The notes under the pieces were generated by a model. The model was not told the DNA's origin. It made no database searches and saw only the letters and a program-made list of their open reading frames with translations. DNA of 64,000 bases from Williamsia sterculiae. GTDB taxonomy: Bacteria; Actinomycetota; Actinomycetes; Mycobacteriales; Mycobacteriaceae. Positions 16,616-42,525 of this stretch are shown here, piece after piece. The translations under genes and the position numbers were made by a program. The stretch spans positions 372,001 through 436,000 of the forward strand of contig NZ_FTNT01000003.1 of the NCBI RefSeq assembly GCF_900156495.1. The letters run 5' to 3'. Numbering within the stretch: position 1 is the first letter of the stretch; each line of letters opens with the position of its first letter.

Positions 16616-18415
16616 TCACTCGGCCAGCGTGCGTCCGCGCGACCACGCCTGCCACAGTCGGCTGTAGCGGCCTCCGGCCGCGACGAGGTGCTCGTGGGTT
16701 CCCGTCTCCACGATGCGGCCCTGATGCATGAACACGATGCGGTCGGCCGCGGCGGCCTGGCTGAGCCGGTGCGCGATGATCAACGCCGACCGCCCGGCGA
16801 GTACGGCCTCGGCCGAGGCCTCCAAGACGCCGGCACCCGCACTCCCCGCGTCGGCCGTCGCCTCGTCGACGATGACCACGGAGGGGTCCAGCAGCTCGAT
16901 TCTCACCAAGGCCAACTGCTGGGCCTGCATTGCCGACAACTGATGACCGTGTTCGCCGACATGGGTATCCAGATTGTCGGGTAGGGCACGCACCCAACGC
17001 GCCGCACCCGCCTTCTCCAACGCGGACCACAGGTCGTCGTCGGTTGCCTCGTCACGCACCAGACGCAGGTCGTCGGCCAGCGACCCCGAGAACACATGCA
17101 CTTCCTGCGTGAGTAGTGCAACGGTTCGAGCCCGCGCGGTCTCGTCGAGTCGCGCCAGGTCCACCGAGCCCAGCCGTACCGACCCGTGGGCGGGTGGATA
17201 CAGCCCGGCCAGGATCACCGCGAGTGTGCTCTTACCCGCACCGGACTGACCGACGAGCGCGACGTGCTCACCGGACCGGACGGTGAGGGAGACGTCATGG
17301 AGCACCTCGTGGTCGTGCAGATATCCGAAATCGATGCCGGTCCCCACCAGATCGGCGCCTCGAGGTGCGGTGTCGGTGGCGGACTCACGCTCCGGCTCGT
17401 CGATGACCCCGACGATGCGGCTCAGTGCCGCCCCGCCGGACTGCAGGTCGTCGAGCGTGTACAGCAACGCGCCTATCGGGTCGAAGAGATTGAGGAAGAA
17501 CAGCATCGCCGCCGTGGTCGCCCCGACGGTGACCTCGTCGGCGTTCACGAGGACGAAGCCGACGACGAGGATCGTCGTCATCCCGACGAACTCGCCGAAG
17601 TTGATCCGACCGCCGAGTCGGTTCTGCAACACCGATGCCCGCATCGCCCACCGCACCACATCCCACGAGTGCCGGTCGATGCGGTGCTCCAACGAATGCG
17701 ACAGTTCGAAGGCCCGCACGGTCTCCAGTCCACGTATCGGCCCGAGAACGTGATGGGCCCGGACGGCGTTGGCTTCCCGCTCGTTCGCGTAGAGCGCCGG
17801 TGCATACCGGATGTAGAGGCGTGCCCCGACGTAGTGGATCGGGAGCACAGCCACCGCGACCAGCAGGAAGCGCCAGTCCAGCGTGCCGAGTCCGATGATC
17901 GTCACGCCCACGGTGACCCCGGCCACCAACAGCGACGGCAGGGCACGGCCGATGGCGTCACTGACCACCGCGACGTCACCGGTCGCACGGGACACCAGGT
18001 CACCGCTACCCGCGGCTTCGATCCGTGCTACCGGCAAGCGCAGGGCTCGCGAGATCATCTCCTCGCGCAAACTCGCCAGGACGGACTCGAAGACCCCAGC
18101 CGCGAGAGCCATCCCGATGCCCGCGGCCACCGCTGCTCCAATGGCCGCCGCGACCATCCAGCCGGCGAGGCGCACCACGTCCCCGACGTCGCCACCGTCG
18201 GCGACGACGTCGACGATGTGACCGAACAGACGCGGCGTGACCAATCCAAGCGCCCCGGACACGATCATCGCGACGACGAGCGCGAGCAGCCGCACGCCAC
18301 GCGTGCGCAGCCCGCGCATCAGGTAGCCGACGGTCACCCGCCAGTCGGCGACCGGGAGCGGGTGGGTGGGCGACGCGTCGGGTGTCGGTTCCATCGGGGT
18401 CGAGGGCACGCTCAC
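16616..18415 (-). CDS. ABC exporter half-transporter with functional ATPase motifs (heterodimer subunit A)
   Basis: A 599-residue half-exporter: six-helix membrane domain at residues ~30-330 and a nucleotide-binding domain at ~355-595. Walker A is GQSGAGKST (389-397), Q-loop LLTQEVHVFSG, Walker B VVIVDE (513-518) with catalytic Glu, and the switch His is H549. Its signature motif, however, is LSAMQ (493-497) rather than LSGGQ. The upstream gene has the reverse pattern, so the two must form a heterodimer with one competent ATP site made of this Walker A/B and the partner's signature. The start overlaps the partner's stop by 4 bases. It likely exports a lipid, peptide or drug; substrate unknown. 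Confidence 0.88.
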   Translation of the reverse strand: MSVPSTPMEPTPDASPTHPLPVADWRVTVGYLMRGLRTRGVRLLALVVAMIVSGALGLVTPRLFGHIVDVVADGGDVGDVVRLAGWMVAAAIGAAVAAGIGMALAAGVFESVLASLREEMISRALRLPVARIEAAGSGDLVSRATGDVAVVSDAIGRALPSLLVAGVTVGVTIIGLGTLDWRFLLVAVAVLPIHYVGARLYIRYAPALYANEREANAVRAHHVLGPIRGLETVRAFELSHSLEHRIDRHSWDVVRWAMRASVLQNRLGGRINFGEFVGMTTILVVGFVLVNADEVTVGATTAAMLFFLNLFDPIGALLYTLDDLQSGGAALSRIVGVIDEPERESATDTAPRGADLVGTGIDFGYLHDHEVLHDVSLTVRSGEHVALVGQSGAGKSTLAVILAGLYPPAHGSVRLGSVDLARLDETARARTVALLTQEVHVFSGSLADDLRLVRDEATDDDLWSALEKAGAARWVRALPDNLDTHVGEHGHQLSAMQAQQLALVRIELLDPSVVIVDEATADAGSAGAGVLEASAEAVLAGRSALIIAHRLSQAAAADRIVFMHQGRIVETGTHEHLVAAGGRYSRLWQAWSRGRTLAE

Positions 18416-20184
18416 CGCCCGACCTCCTGGCTGTTCGGCGTGCGCCGCCTGACCACGTTGTCGGCGATGGTGATCACCTCGTCGGCGATCGCGATCAGCG
18501 CGGGCGACGTGGTGAACAGCACAGTCGCTCCGTCACCCCTGGCCACGCGCAACCGTCGCGCAATCTCGGCCTCCGTGACCGAATCGACCGCCGTGGTGGG
18601 GTCACTGAGCACCAGCACCGACGACCGCGGCACCAGCGCGCGCGCCAAGCCGACCCGCTGACGCTGGCCGCCGGACAAGGTGCGACCACCTTCGCCGACC
18701 GGGGAGTTCAGACCGTCCGGTAGTGACTCGGCGACGTCGTCGCACATCGCTGCGGTGATGGCGCGTGTCACCCGGTCGGACCCGATCGGGTGCCCGTCGA
18801 CGGCGATGTTGTCGATGACGCTGCCCTCGAACAGATGCGGCGTGTGCGGGACCACGCGCACGGTCTGACGGGCCGCATGGTGGTCCAGGTCGAACAGATC
18901 CACCTGTCCCACCGACACCTGTCCGTGGGCCGGCCGTTCCTCCCGCGCCAGCACCTCGCACAGCACGCTCGCGATCGCCTGATCGGTGACCACCGCAGTG
19001 ACGCCTGCACCGGGGATGTCCAGGTCCAGGTCGTGCGCCGTTCCGGCGCGCAACCCACGTATGCGGATCGTCGGGTGCCCCGAACCGATGTCCGTCGCAC
19101 CGCCCGACTGCACGGTGGGTCCGGCCTGCAATACCGAAAGCACGCGTGAGCCGCTGGGAATCGCGCCGTTCCAGACCGCACCGACGTTCTTGCCGATGCC
19201 GTTCAGCGGTCCCATGATGAACTGCGTCAGACCGACCACGGTGATCAGTTCACCCACGGTGAGGTGCCCCTGTACCGCCATCACACCGGCCGCGATCCCC
19301 ACCGCGACCACGAACAGCGACGAGGCCATCTGCAAAATCCCGATGTAGACACTCTCGGCGGTCGTCGCACGGATTGCCCCGTCGCGCGCCCGACGACTCA
19401 CCCGGCGGTATCGGTCGGCGGCGATCCGCTCGGCCCCGATACCCTTCAACACCCGCAATCCGGCCACCAGATCTGCGGCCGTACCGGCGGCGTCGCCGGC
19501 GAGCTCCTGTTCGCGTTCTGAGCGGGCGCGCAACGGACCGCCCAGGCGGTCGACCAACCACAGCAGCAGGGGGGCGCCGACCAGGACGGCAATGCCCAGC
19601 GGCCACGACACCCAGAGAAAGATGACACCGGCAACCCCGACGGCGAGCATCTCACCGACGGGGAACACCGCGAGCAGCACCGCCATCGACAATCGCATCA
19701 CGTCAGAGGTCGCGATGCTCAACGCAGTCCCCGGCAAGCGTGCCGGTCCCGCCATCCCACGTGGGTCGAGCATGCGATCGGTGACGCGCATCCGGAACTG
19801 ATGCTCGAGAACCTCTTTCGCGTACATCGCCAAACGGTCGCCGAACCGCCAGGTCAACGACAGCATCGCGAAGTCGACCGCGAGCGCGAGCACCCACCAC
19901 GACAGTTGCGCCAGATCGTGTTCACCGACGGCACGGTCGATGGCCAGACCCATCAGCACCGGCACCAACGCCTCACCCACGAAGTGCAGGATGACCAACA
20001 CCATCGCCGGAACCGTGTATTTGTTGACTCCCCACATGGTGCGCCACACCAACTGCCGGGGAGTGGTCGACTCGTCGATCGCCACGTATCGGCCGCGCTC
20101 GGGTTCGCGGTCGGCGACCATGAATCCCTCGAACCTCCACAGTCGGACCAGAGGATTGCGCGATCGCTCGAATGTCGCGCTCAC
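18412..20184 (-). CDS. ABC exporter half-transporter with degenerate nucleotide site (heterodimer subunit B)
   Basis: A 590-residue half-exporter with an N-terminal membrane domain (~50-340) and a C-terminal nucleotide-binding domain. The signature LSGGQRQRVGLARAL (503-517) is perfect. Everything else needed to bind and cleave ATP is lost: the Walker A position (~395-407) reads AVVTDQAIASV with no GxxGxGK, the Q-loop Gln is His (VVPHTPHLF), the Walker B Glu is Pro (VLSDPTT, D528-P529), and the switch His is Ser (FTTSPALI). It supplies only the signature to the active site of the partner encoded by the overlapping downstream gene. It is first in the operon. Confidence 0.88.
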   Translation of the reverse strand: MSATFERSRNPLVRLWRFEGFMVADREPERGRYVAIDESTTPRQLVWRTMWGVNKYTVPAMVLVILHFVGEALVPVLMGLAIDRAVGEHDLAQLSWWVLALAVDFAMLSLTWRFGDRLAMYAKEVLEHQFRMRVTDRMLDPRGMAGPARLPGTALSIATSDVMRLSMAVLLAVFPVGEMLAVGVAGVIFLWVSWPLGIAVLVGAPLLLWLVDRLGGPLRARSEREQELAGDAAGTAADLVAGLRVLKGIGAERIAADRYRRVSRRARDGAIRATTAESVYIGILQMASSLFVVAVGIAAGVMAVQGHLTVGELITVVGLTQFIMGPLNGIGKNVGAVWNGAIPSGSRVLSVLQAGPTVQSGGATDIGSGHPTIRIRGLRAGTAHDLDLDIPGAGVTAVVTDQAIASVLCEVLAREERPAHGQVSVGQVDLFDLDHHAARQTVRVVPHTPHLFEGSVIDNIAVDGHPIGSDRVTRAITAAMCDDVAESLPDGLNSPVGEGGRTLSGGQRQRVGLARALVPRSSVLVLSDPTTAVDSVTEAEIARRLRVARGDGATVLFTTSPALIAIADEVITIADNVVRRRTPNSQEVGR

Positions 20185-20443: not shown

Positions 20444-22429
20444 ATGGACGAAAATCGCGGAGACCGTACAGAACTATCGAAAGGAGAAAACAGGTCTCTC
20501 CCGGGAATTTCCCGTATGACCATCACAGTTCGTGTCGCATTCGACACGGACGACGTTGTGCGCCCGGACGTCAGCGCACTACTTCTCGACGATCAACGAC
20601 GCGTTCGCAACAGCGGGGATTTCGTCTTCTTCAACCAACCAACCGACGAGTCCGGTGCCGTTCGTATTGTCGATCCGAGCGCGCTCGAGATCGAGCCCGA
20701 ACAGCTCGGACAAGTCGATGCGCTTGCCATCGACCTCAGTAGAGTTGGCGGCGACGTCCACAATATCGTGATCTGTGCCAGCATCGATGACAGCACACCG
20801 CTGACATTCACCGACGCATCTGTTATCTCAGTTGTGGTCAACGACATCGACAATGCGGTCAGTCAGACGCTTGCAACCTATTCGATTAGCGCTCTTGATC
20901 GTGAACGCGCATTGATGTTCATGGAGTTCTACAGGCGTGGTGCGGAGTGGAAGCTCCGAGCGCTCGGTGAAGGATACGCAGAGGGCCTCGGTCCACTTGC
21001 TGTGAGCCACGGAGTAGAGATCGAGAACGAACCCGAGACCGTGGGCGATACCGGCACGGTGCCTCGTCCGGAGCCTCGTGGCGAGATATCAGCTGGGGAC
21101 TCGCAACCTGCTTCCACGCGGAAGGTGTCCACTGCCAGCACCAAGAAGCCGACACGGCCACCCAGACTCCCGCAGTGGTCACTTGGCCCTGACCTCGCCG
21201 AGGACGGCGAGTGGGACCGAGCTCGCCTGTTTTCCGTCAGTGCGATCGGCTCCGGGAACGAGCGTGAGCGCCGAGCGGTGTCGGCCCTTCTAGCTGTAAT
21301 CGGTGGTGTTCGTGAGTTCGGACGCGAGGTCACCCGTCGATGCGCCGCACCGACGGGGCAGATCGAGACCTTCATCGAGCCACAATTCCGGCACGATGAC
21401 GACACCGTTCGGCCAGACGGGTTGCTTCGTGTCCGCCGCGGAAGGAAAGAGTGGGTTGCTCTGGTGGAGGCCAAGACATTATCGAACCCTCTCAAGGCCG
21501 ACCAGGTCGAAAAGTACATAGATCTGGCGCGTGAACACGGTTTCGATGCTGTCGTCACCGTCAGCAATCAGTTGCCCGGTGCGCAGGACGACCATCCGGT
21601 TCTGATCGACAAACGTAAGCTCCGCAAGGTGGACCTGGTCCATATCAGCTGGGACGAGATCCGTTCAGTGGCGATTCAGATGTCGATGCATTCGCGAATT
21701 GAGGACTCCACCCAAGGCTGGGTCCTGCGTGAATTCGTCCGTTACCTTCAACATCCGAGTTCGGGGTTGCACGGATTCACCGATATGGGTCCGTTATGGG
21801 TGTCAGTGCGGTCCGCCGTCAAGGACAGGACACTGGGGCCCGCTGACAAATCCGCGGTCGAAGTGTGCAATCAGTTCGATCAGCTGATCAGGCACATCGG
21901 GCTCGACCTCTCGTGCTTATTGGGAGTCACCGTCACACCAATATTTCCGCGCGATCGGCCCGACAGAACTACGCGCACGCAGCAATTGGCCGATTCCGGC
22001 GTCATGTTCGGAAGCCTCCGCATTCCGGGCGCGACTGGTCCTGTCACGGTGGAGATGGATCTGCGCTCCGAGCGTGTCAGCTGCGCAATCAGTCAGGAGC
22101 TCCCCGGCACTAGCCGCACGCAGACCAAGGTGAAGAATCTTGTTCGCCAGATTCCTGACGCTCGGCCGGATACGCGCATTGACGCGTTCACCTCCTCTAG
22201 CAGTGGCACGACACCCGCGAGATCATCGCTGCTGAAATCGTTACGCGACGACCCATCGGGCCTCGATATCGACGATGGCCGATCCGCTCGGCGCTTCATC
22301 GTCACCCAGACTGGTCCCTTGGGCGGCCGGGGCGGCCAATCGCGGGGAAACGTCGTGAATGCGACCAACAAACTGGTGGCGCAGTTCTACAAAGAGATTG
22401 TCCAGAACATGCGTGTGGTCCGCGGTTGA
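20444..22429 (+). CDS. TerD domain fused to a PD-(D/E)XK nuclease-like domain
   Basis: A 661-residue protein. Residues ~9-193 are a TerD-family domain; the start ATG 20444 is chosen because LSKGENRSLP aligns with the N-terminal L.KG.N..L of TerD proteins, which a later ATG (20516) would remove. A polar linker (~194-245) follows. Residues ~270-405 resemble a PD-(D/E)XK nuclease: RPDGLLRV (D325), WVALVEAKT (E342, K344) and QVEKY (Q354-Y358, a QxxxY motif). The C-terminal ~250 residues, ending KLVAQFYKEIVQNMRVV, are unrecognised. The TerD part lacks the calcium loop, like the first half of the double-TerD protein at 41269-42525. Base composition is lower in GC than its neighbours (50% at 20881-20940), suggesting transfer. 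Confidence 0.72.
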   Translation: MDENRGDRTELSKGENRSLPGISRMTITVRVAFDTDDVVRPDVSALLLDDQRRVRNSGDFVFFNQPTDESGAVRIVDPSALEIEPEQLGQVDALAIDLSRVGGDVHNIVICASIDDSTPLTFTDASVISVVVNDIDNAVSQTLATYSISALDRERALMFMEFYRRGAEWKLRALGEGYAEGLGPLAVSHGVEIENEPETVGDTGTVPRPEPRGEISAGDSQPASTRKVSTASTKKPTRPPRLPQWSLGPDLAEDGEWDRARLFSVSAIGSGNERERRAVSALLAVIGGVREFGREVTRRCAAPTGQIETFIEPQFRHDDDTVRPDGLLRVRRGRKEWVALVEAKTLSNPLKADQVEKYIDLAREHGFDAVVTVSNQLPGAQDDHPVLIDKRKLRKVDLVHISWDEIRSVAIQMSMHSRIEDSTQGWVLREFVRYLQHPSSGLHGFTDMGPLWVSVRSAVKDRTLGPADKSAVEVCNQFDQLIRHIGLDLSCLLGVTVTPIFPRDRPDRTTRTQQLADSGVMFGSLRIPGATGPVTVEMDLRSERVSCAISQELPGTSRTQTKVKNLVRQIPDARPDTRIDAFTSSSSGTTPARSSLLKSLRDDPSGLDIDDGRSARRFIVTQTGPLGGRGGQSRGNVVNATNKLVAQFYKEIVQNMRVVRG

Positions 22430-41268: not shown

Positions 41269-42525
41269 TCAGCGAGTGATGAAACGCTCCACCGGCGCGG
41301 GTGCGCCACCCGCGGATTTCACGGCCTCACCCGGGTGCCGCGCCGAGATGCCCTCACCGATCGCCTCGAGCTTCCAGTCCGGCCCGGCCCGATAGACCTT
41401 GGCCATGACGAGACCGGTGAACGGCATGCCGCCGGCGAGCGTGTACCGGGCCAGTTCGATGTCGGTGGTCGCGTCGACCAGACGGCAGAACGCGTTGTCG
41501 ATCTGTTCGAACGTCTGGCCCTGATACGAGGTCACGATGAACAGGATCTGGTCGACGCTCGGGTGTATCCGGGTGAGATCTACGTCGATCACCTCGTCGT
41601 CGCCCTCACCCTCGCCGGTGAGGTTGTCGCCGCGATGCCGGATGGAGGCGTCCTTGGACACCAGTTGTCCGTAGTAGGCGATGTCGATGACCCGTCCGCC
41701 GGACACCAGGATCGCCGACGCGTCGAGGTCGATGGCCGAGCTGCGCGCCGAGGAGAGAAACCCTCCTCGCTTGGTGATCGGATCCCAGCCGAGGCCCATC
41801 ATGATGCGGGTCAGCGCGACCCCGCCGTCCTTCTTCAACGACACCCGCTGCCCCTTGGTGAGGCTGATCGGGCGGTCCTTGGTCAGGCTGACCTCACCCG
41901 CTGCACCCGCTGCGAGGTCGGCGGTCCGCTGATGCTGCGGCGCCGCGGTGGGGCGCTCGTACCGCGGCGCCGCGGTGGCTGGCGGGGGTGGTGGTGCGGG
42001 TGCTGTCGGGGCTGCAGGAGGCGTCGGGGCGGGCTGATCGTCGACGGACACCCCGTGGTCGGTGACCAGGGCCGCGAATCCGCCCGCGTACCCCTGCCCG
42101 ACTGCGCGCACCTTCCAGGCACCACCGCGGCGATACACCTCGAGAGCGATGACGATCGACTCCGAGGACAAGCCGTCGATGGTGTAGTTGTAGAGCTCCT
42201 GACCGCCTGCGATCACATGCGCGACCGGTGCCGCGACGGCGCCGAACGTGCCGCTGTCGAGGGTGATGACCGCCCGTACCTGAGCGATGTCGGCGGGGAT
42301 GGCCGACAGTGTCAGCTCCAGCGTGCCGATACCCGCGCCGCCTCGGAGGGCCACGCCCGGACCGGTGGGTTGGTTGTAGAACACGAAGTCGGCGTCGGTG
42401 CGCACCGTGCCGTTCTCCGTCACCAGCAACGCGGACACATCACCGGCCGTGGCCAGGTCCACCGACACGGTGACCGCGTCTGTGTTCAGCGGGCCGTTCT
42501 GCCCCTTCGCCAGCGTCATCGTCAT
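41269..42525 (-). CDS. Double TerD-domain protein
   Basis: A 418-residue protein with two TerD domains joined by a Pro/Ala-rich linker (~164-205). The C-terminal TerD (~210-400) has the acidic calcium-binding elements AIDLDASAIL (265-273) and [13 protein letters not shown] (299-311). The N-terminal TerD (1-~163) lacks both, reading AGDVSALLVTENGT and DFVFYNQPTG instead. A KGQRVSLKKDGG lead precedes the second domain. TerD proteins are calcium-binding and linked to tellurite, phage and stress responses. ATG 42525 overlaps the HAD stop (ATGA); it is the last gene of the minus-strand Ter operon. Confidence 0.88.
   Translation of the reverse strand: MTMTLAKGQNGPLNTDAVTVSVDLATAGDVSALLVTENGTVRTDADFVFYNQPTGPGVALRGGAGIGTLELTLSAIPADIAQVRAVITLDSGTFGAVAAPVAHVIAGGQELYNYTIDGLSSESIVIALEVYRRGGAWKVRAVGQGYAGGFAALVTDHGVSVDDQPAPTPPAAPTAPAPPPPPATAAPRYERPTAAPQHQRTADLAAGAAGEVSLTKDRPISLTKGQRVSLKKDGGVALTRIMMGLGWDPITKRGGFLSSARSSAIDLDASAILVSGGRVIDIAYYGQLVSKDASIRHRGDNLTGEGEGDDEVIDVDLTRIHPSVDQILFIVTSYQGQTFEQIDNAFCRLVDATTDIELARYTLAGGMPFTGLVMAKVYRAGPDWKLEAIGEGISARHPGEAVKSAGGAPAPVERFITR

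Follow-up and report, generated by a model that had tools for sequence, protein, structure and literature searches.

A 64,000-nucleotide stretch of the Williamsia sterculiae genome (contig NZ_FTNT01000003.1, positions 372,001 to 436,000; this whole stretch is the window) carries two adjacent genes for the halves, B and A, of an ATP-binding cassette (ABC) exporter. One of its two ATP sites has every canonical element and the other has none, with no Walker A motif at all, and this absence recurs in every B row of the family that was read. We consider it probable that the pair is an obligate heterodimeric exporter with a single ATP site, its site 2 serving as a nucleotide-free protein hinge, and that it carries a siderophore-type cargo. 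An earlier, sequence-only reading had reported an exporter pair here, and two neighboring minus-strand open reading frames (ORFs) do sit at the coordinates it gave:

18412-20184, minus strand: subunit B, 590 residues, an exporter half-transporter whose nucleotide-binding half is degenerate and whose signature is intact (ORF and Pfam)
16616-18415, minus strand: subunit A, 599 residues, an exporter half-transporter whose ATP-binding half is intact and whose signature and D-loop are degenerate (ORF and Pfam)

The gene order is B then A, and the GTG start of A shares 4 bases with the TGA stop of B. Both frames are open, with a third-position GC content of 0.84 in each gene. Pfam matches above cut-offs give ABC_membrane followed by ABC_tran in B and in A, and NCBIfam returned no model over its cut-off for either among the 25 matches listed. 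By domain order, and by the fold search with B described below, the pair is a type IV (ABCB/MsbA-like) exporter.

The motif register of B was set by HMMER alignment to ABCB1 and by alignment to 40 homologous pairs; these 40 fetched loci, one of them a second pair from the same genome, make up with the window a main set of 41 pairs. Subunit A carries the following elements:

17321-17323, minus strand: Tyr365, the aromatic A-loop residue (41 of 41 pairs)
17225-17251, minus strand: Walker A, GQSGAGKST (G, G, G and K invariant in 41 of 41 pairs)
17105-17107, minus strand: Gln437 of the Q-loop (41 of 41 pairs)
16925-16939, minus strand: signature LSAMQ (relatives mostly LTPAQ or LTAAQ; LSGGQ in 0 of 57 A rows)
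16841-16879, minus strand: VVIVDEATADAGS, from Walker B Asp517-Glu518 to the D-loop (Asp and Glu intact in 41 of 41 pairs)
16769-16771, minus strand: His549, the switch His (41 of 41 pairs)

The alignment thus bears out the sequence-only reading of A, which had listed Walker A, Q-loop, Walker B Glu and switch His as kept and the signature as ruined to LSAMQ. A further loss that it did not mention is that of the D-loop Asp, replaced by Gly524 (ATADAGS) and Gly in 41 of 41 pairs. The corresponding segments of B are:

18967-18990, minus strand: Walker A site, residues ~399-406, with no Gly-rich loop and no Lys (alignment and model)
18844-18846, minus strand: Q-loop position, with His447 for Gln (all 41 main-set pairs have His; the 18 rows read later have H, N, Y or T)
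18655-18678, minus strand: signature LSGGQRQR (41 of 41 pairs)
18580-18618, minus strand: VLVLSDPTTAVDS, Walker B to D-loop segment (alignment)
18502-18510, minus strand: switch His motif, here T559-S560-P561 (His absent from all 41 pairs)

Here too the perfect LSGGQ, the absent Walker A (no GxxxxGK[ST] in the B of the window) and the His in the Q-loop agree with what had been read from the sequence. Two of its assignments were shifted. LVLSDPTTAVD of B pairs without gaps with LLLDEATCALD of ABCB1, so that the position of the catalytic Glu, for which a Pro had been given, is taken by Asp528 (Asp in 36 of 41 pairs, Glu in 5 of 41), and Pro529 falls on the Ala after it; likewise, the residue aligned with the switch His is Thr559, followed by the Ser560 that had been named. 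Ser527 replaces the Walker B Asp in the window pair, where 37 of 41 pairs have His and one each has N, V, Q or S. The D-loop Asp534 is retained (Asp in 41 of 41 pairs). No aromatic residue occupies the A-loop position of B; the alignment is loose there, and 12 of 41 B rows have a Tyr two residues earlier.

In a dimer of nucleotide-binding domains (NBDs), the signature and D-loop of one subunit lie opposite the Walker A of the other. Because of this geometry, what is kept falls within one site and what is lost within the other. On the aligned sequences, site 1, predicted to consist of the A-loop, Walker A, Walker B, Q-loop and switch His of A with the signature and D-loop of B, is complete, while site 2, which would pair the nucleotide face of B with the signature and D-loop of A, has nothing canonical remaining in the window pair. 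The complementary decay described earlier therefore stands, as one full site and one emptied of canonical elements. Two adjacent unlike halves with complementary signature and Walker B/switch His states are what a degenerate-site heterodimer looks like at the level of genes, and the two subunits would be expected to assemble into one.

Could the loss be peculiar to this genome, which alone represents its genus in the genome collection? Searches with B at E <= 1e-60 gave matches in 15 of 41 genomes of relatives and in 40 of 197 from the class, both counts including the own genome, for 67 distinct B matches with the window. Besides the main set, we read a further 20 loci (14 from B matches and 6 from the D-loop pattern DEATAEAG), which yielded 18 B and 16 A rows (L130 gave neither subunit and L134 only A), and then the last 12 matches, four of which end shortly after the Walker A of A. 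A P-loop GxxxxGK[ST] anywhere in B was found in 0 of 71 rows (59 plus 12), comprising all 67 matches and 4 more, which also rules out a P-loop displaced to another part of B. In A it was present in 57 of 57 rows and in 12 of 12 more. The same genome has 9 other exporter half-units, all of which retain Walker A, and so do 22 of the 24 lower-scoring exporters read, of 42 matches from five genomes; L199 and L200, which are without it, are two of the three best-scoring among these. Across the main set, the positions of site 1 are invariant in 41 of 41 pairs. In each of these pairs B has lost its Walker A, its Q-loop Gln, its Walker B Asp and its switch His, and A its signature and its D-loop Asp. 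Since retained positions are invariant and lost ones are lost throughout, except at the catalytic position of B, the motif pattern as aligned is not a product of chance.

Recent decay, a pseudogene or a sequence error in one genome is ruled out by these homologues, and we give it a negligible probability. The sequence-only reading had asked whether the loss is fixed in relatives, and had named homologues of B with an intact Walker A as the sign of decay or error: the loss is fixed, and no such homologue was found among the 71 rows. The two open frames and their third-position GC argue against decay as well, as does the tree described below, in which the B rows lacking Walker A cluster together as a single broad group.

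The arrangement itself is widespread. A directly follows B on the same strand in 40 of 40 fetched loci; among the further 20, A comes first in L139, the contig ends in L141, and no A was found beside B in L138 and L147. In these last two B lies directly beside a long nonribosomal peptide synthetase (NRPS)-like frame, so A and B may be parted by a large gene, a layout like that of the coelichelin cluster (CchG/CchI). The main-set motif HDPTTAVD gave string matches in 50 of 394 class genomes. The pattern DEATAEAG occurred in 13 of 396 genomes of the phylum, an undercount because the A of the window reads ATADAG and is missed by it, and in 0 of 200 genomes in the phylum of an Aquabacterium locus and 0 of 3 in another set. 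A related-loci search of genome contigs with B alone returned 3 loci, the best segment being 24-32% identical, and five plasmid records matched B, from Tsukamurella, Rhodococcus, Embleya and two Streptomyces.

AlphaFold2 models of the two subunits were made as monomers from small alignments (B: predicted local distance difference test score, pLDDT, 75 and predicted template modeling score, pTM, 0.49; A: pLDDT 73 and pTM 0.46). In the predicted structure of A, a 5-residue loop (390-394) joins the strand 384-389 to the helix 395-402. At the same site in the B model, a 2-residue turn (400-401) joins the strand 394-399 to the helix 402-412, so that the P-loop site appears collapsed. The nearest solved folds to the B model by Foldseek were chains of TM287/288, TmrAB, IrtAB and MsbA, the best being 3qf4_A of TM287/288. 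Conservation follows the same asymmetry: the Walker A loop of B is conserved at 0.44 vs. 0.43 for its transmembrane part, and that of A at 0.76 vs. 0.44. The degenerate half of B is not simply drifting, since its Q-loop His (41 of 41) and the switch-region Ser-Pro (40 and 41 of 41) come near the fixity of catalytic residues in the main set.

How does this pair compare with known asymmetric exporters? In TM287/288, TmrAB, BmrCD and TAP, the degenerate site retains its Walker A and binds ATP. Pdr5-type transporters and ABCG5/G8 belong to another ABC subfamily than the A/B pair, and the degenerate site of Pdr5 keeps a glycine-rich loop. With TM287/288, TmrAB, BmrCD, TAP and MsRv1273c/72c the A/B pair shares the fold, the pairing of half-transporters, the combination of a consensus with a degenerate site, a degenerate partner signature and a Glu to Asp change in the degenerate half. 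It differs from them in having lost Walker A, Q-loop Gln, Walker B Asp, switch His and the D-loop Asp of the partner. With Pdr5-type transporters and ABCG5/G8 it shares degeneracy in several motifs of one site, Walker A included; unlike Pdr5 and ABCG8, whose Walker A stays recognizable, B has no Gly-rich loop. The literature describes ATP bound through the Walker A of the degenerate site in MsRv1273c/72c (PMC12038006), a Walker A Lys replaced by Cys in the degenerate site of Pdr5 (PMC7756269), which nevertheless still holds ATP (PMC8421411), and a Walker A altered to GSSGCGRAS with the glycine-rich loop kept in ABCG8 (PMC7756502). All three fit the earlier remark that most heterodimeric exporters keep Walker A in the degenerate site; the A/B family does not, with a Walker A in 0 of 71 B rows and none in the B model. 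Among the matches listed in our literature search, seen in part, no exporter with a degenerate site wholly lacking Walker A was described, which is weak evidence of absence as subscription papers and preprints are poorly covered.

The ATP held in the degenerate sites of Pdr5 and MsRv1273c/72c is a point in favor of a different possibility, that B binds nucleotide in site 2 through a non-canonical pocket without Walker A, so that both sites would be occupied. The rest of the B NBD is also fairly conserved (mean pairwise identity 0.48 vs. 0.57 for A). We nonetheless judge it rather unlikely: the loop in B has neither a Gly-rich stretch nor a conserved Lys or Arg, it is conserved no more than the membrane part, the predicted P-loop site is collapsed, and neither the B nor the A face of site 2 offers its usual residues in any of the 41 pairs. 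Another ligand might be a metal. The Q-loop Gln and the Walker B Asp are Mg2+-ligand positions, and in the siderophore-linked main set B has His at the first in 41 of 41 pairs and at the second in 37 of 41, with a conserved Asp or Glu next to them. Site 2 may therefore hold a transition metal, so that iron or zinc might gate siderophore export and the dead site would have gained a function beyond that of a hinge. This seems very improbable to us. At the Walker B Asp position, the window pair has Ser and its two nearest relatives Asn and Val, and the L140-like branch has Asn or Thr at the Q-loop and Val at the Walker B Asp.

The mechanism that we favor is one in which B and A pair as an obligate heterodimer with the type IV (MsbA/TM287-288) fold. 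Only A-B would work, because A-A lacks a working signature and B-B lacks Walker A. Site 1 would hold and hydrolyze one ATP per cycle, with A gripping the ATP and the signature of B closing over it; B would thus supply the signature in trans along with half of the translocation path. Site 2 would carry no nucleotide, its two faces staying in contact as a protein hinge that takes over the role proposed for an ATP 'glue' in other degenerate exporters. In a review, degenerate-site ATP in asymmetric exporters is said to act, seemingly, as a hinge, with conservation of the site taken as retained function (PMC7756269), and in another paper indirect evidence is cited for ATP as glue in the degenerate site (PMC12038006). 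Where other degenerate exporters keep ATP in the dead site, the hinge here would have to be protein alone or another ligand.

The histories of the two subunits fit the proposed pairing. In a tree of 74 hand-chosen rows, built with motif columns removed by a quick method, unrooted and with Shimodaira-Hasegawa approximate likelihood-ratio test (SH-aLRT) support without bootstrap, the B rows (33) and the A rows (32) separate into two groups, each with 100% SH-aLRT against nine other exporters of the genome; two long control branches join each other in this tree. The inner branching of the two groups is broadly alike, and the A and B distance matrices of the 41 pairs correlate at r = 0.94, which 0 of 2000 permutations reached. 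Outside the main set, the L140-like branch has a B without Walker A, with Glu at the catalytic place, and an A that retains the D-loop Asp; L199 has a B without Walker A that retains the Walker B Asp and Glu. Because these branches lack Walker A and keep other elements, the tree, unrooted and quick as it is, suggests an early loss of Walker A, followed in the main set by erosion of the Walker B Asp and of the partner D-loop. The L199/L223 branch is a possible intermediate in the loss; its neighbors are, by eye, not siderophore genes.

Evidence on the cargo comes from gene neighborhoods. Of four plasmid records read, one had no gene table. In the three annotated ones, where the homologues are labeled plain ABC transporter ATP-binding proteins, one lies amid isochorismate synthase, isochorismatase, AMP-ligase, SidA-type monooxygenase and formyltransferase genes (Tsukamurella tyrosinosolvens), one amid isochorismate synthase, isochorismatase and AMP-ligase genes (Rhodococcus) and one amid SidA-type monooxygenase, formyltransferase, NRPS and iron-uptake genes (Streptomyces). 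We then counted neighbors up to 7 kb away, using 13 siderophore or iron proteins from these records as queries and 36 regions of the same genomes as controls (L059, L082, L091 and L094 had no control region); thresholds were set after a first look at the query matches and were identical for cases and controls. A siderophore or iron gene was near 29 of 40 relatives vs. 3 of 36 controls (p = 7e-9), where the positive control L153 lies ~4.5 kb from a case locus on its contig and may be part of the same cluster. By gene, cases and controls numbered 8 and 0 for SidA, 5 and 1 for formyltransferase, 20 and 2 for FecCD or binding protein, 11 and 1 for NRPS, and 1 and 0 for dihydroxybenzoate (DHB) ligase. 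An iron box, scored anywhere in the locus at <= 4 mismatches to an IdeR/DmdR consensus, was found in 21 of 40 loci of relatives vs. 0 of 36 controls (p = 5e-8). The main clade thus most likely exports siderophores or their precursors. The family TC 3.A.1.119, listed as Drug/Siderophore Exporter-3 (PMC3924187), and CchG/CchI of the coelichelin cluster may be among the closest known systems.

Some transporters with an exporter fold import ferric siderophores, IrtAB and YbtPQ among them. IrtAB, a mycobacterial siderophore transporter, carries a siderophore-interaction domain fused to one half. The A/B pair resembles it as a probable iron-linked heterodimer with an exporter fold. Chain B of IrtAB is among the nearest folds of the B model, and iron-uptake genes lie near 20 of 40 relatives, both of which would suit a ferric siderophore importer. 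However, unlike IrtAB, which is an importer, A and B have only ABC_membrane and ABC_tran by Pfam, with no siderophore-interaction domain. Import is already provided for in the cluster beside the L121 pair, by two permeases, an ATPase and a binding protein, and biosynthesis genes stand alongside in the three annotated records. We regard import as unlikely, and export as the preferred direction.

Several observations weigh against the reading that we favor, some touching the mechanism and others the cargo. The catalytic Glu of B survives in 5 of the 41 main-set rows and in 9 of the 18 from the added loci, its Walker B Asp in 3 of those 18 and also in L053 and L055, and the D-loop Asp of A in 6 of the 16 A rows from the added loci. 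The models are of single chains and of modest confidence, as their scores show. The conserved new residues in B fit a hinge but would also fit another bound ligand. As to cargo, none of the 13 siderophore or iron queries matched anywhere in the 64-kb window, which also has no iron box within 3 mismatches (the best, at 41878, has 5); 11 of 40 relatives lack an iron or siderophore neighbor and 19 of 40 an iron box; and the deeper branches without Walker A (L140-like, L199), read by eye, are not beside siderophore genes.

The lack of siderophore genes and of an iron box in the window, and the deeper branches, would also favor a general drug or lipid exporter unrelated to iron as the identity of the window pair, as would the presence in the same genome of a second pair of the family (L075, contig 4), 46% (A) and 36% (B) identical to the window pair, which adjoins NRPS-like and SidA-like genes and has an iron box at 4 mismatches. 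We think this possible but doubtful, since in the tree the window pair lies closest to two loci with a siderophore or iron link: L058, at 61% identity, has DHB-ligase-like and SidA-like genes nearby, and L059, at 52%, a FecCD-like permease. A homologue at 52.7% identity also lies inside a siderophore cluster with isochorismate genes. No close DHB ligase was found in the own genome, the best match being 32%. The window pair is a stand-alone copy, and its cargo is probably siderophore-like.

Three other features were seen in the window and the genome:

14601-15467, minus strand: metallo-beta-lactamase-fold gene spread over two ORFs (Pfam profile positions 7-91, then 100-196), a disrupted gene or a sequence error
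20444-22429, plus strand, divergent from the exporter pair: protein of 661 residues whose N-terminal region is a TerD domain (residues 9-187) and whose long C-terminal region has no Pfam match and by eye looks like a restriction-type nuclease; possibly a TerD-nuclease fusion
contig 20 of the same genome, ~78-109 kb: very large NRPS-like gene, whose open frame runs to 11265 residues and has many matches of the adenylation type

The A/B family amounts to a natural experiment in which the nucleotide face of the second site was dropped and the matching elements were lost on the partner. Should transport prove to run on a single ATP, a second-site ATP would be dispensable and a lone consensus site would suffice. 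The family would also form a class of probable siderophore exporters that can be recognized from sequence.

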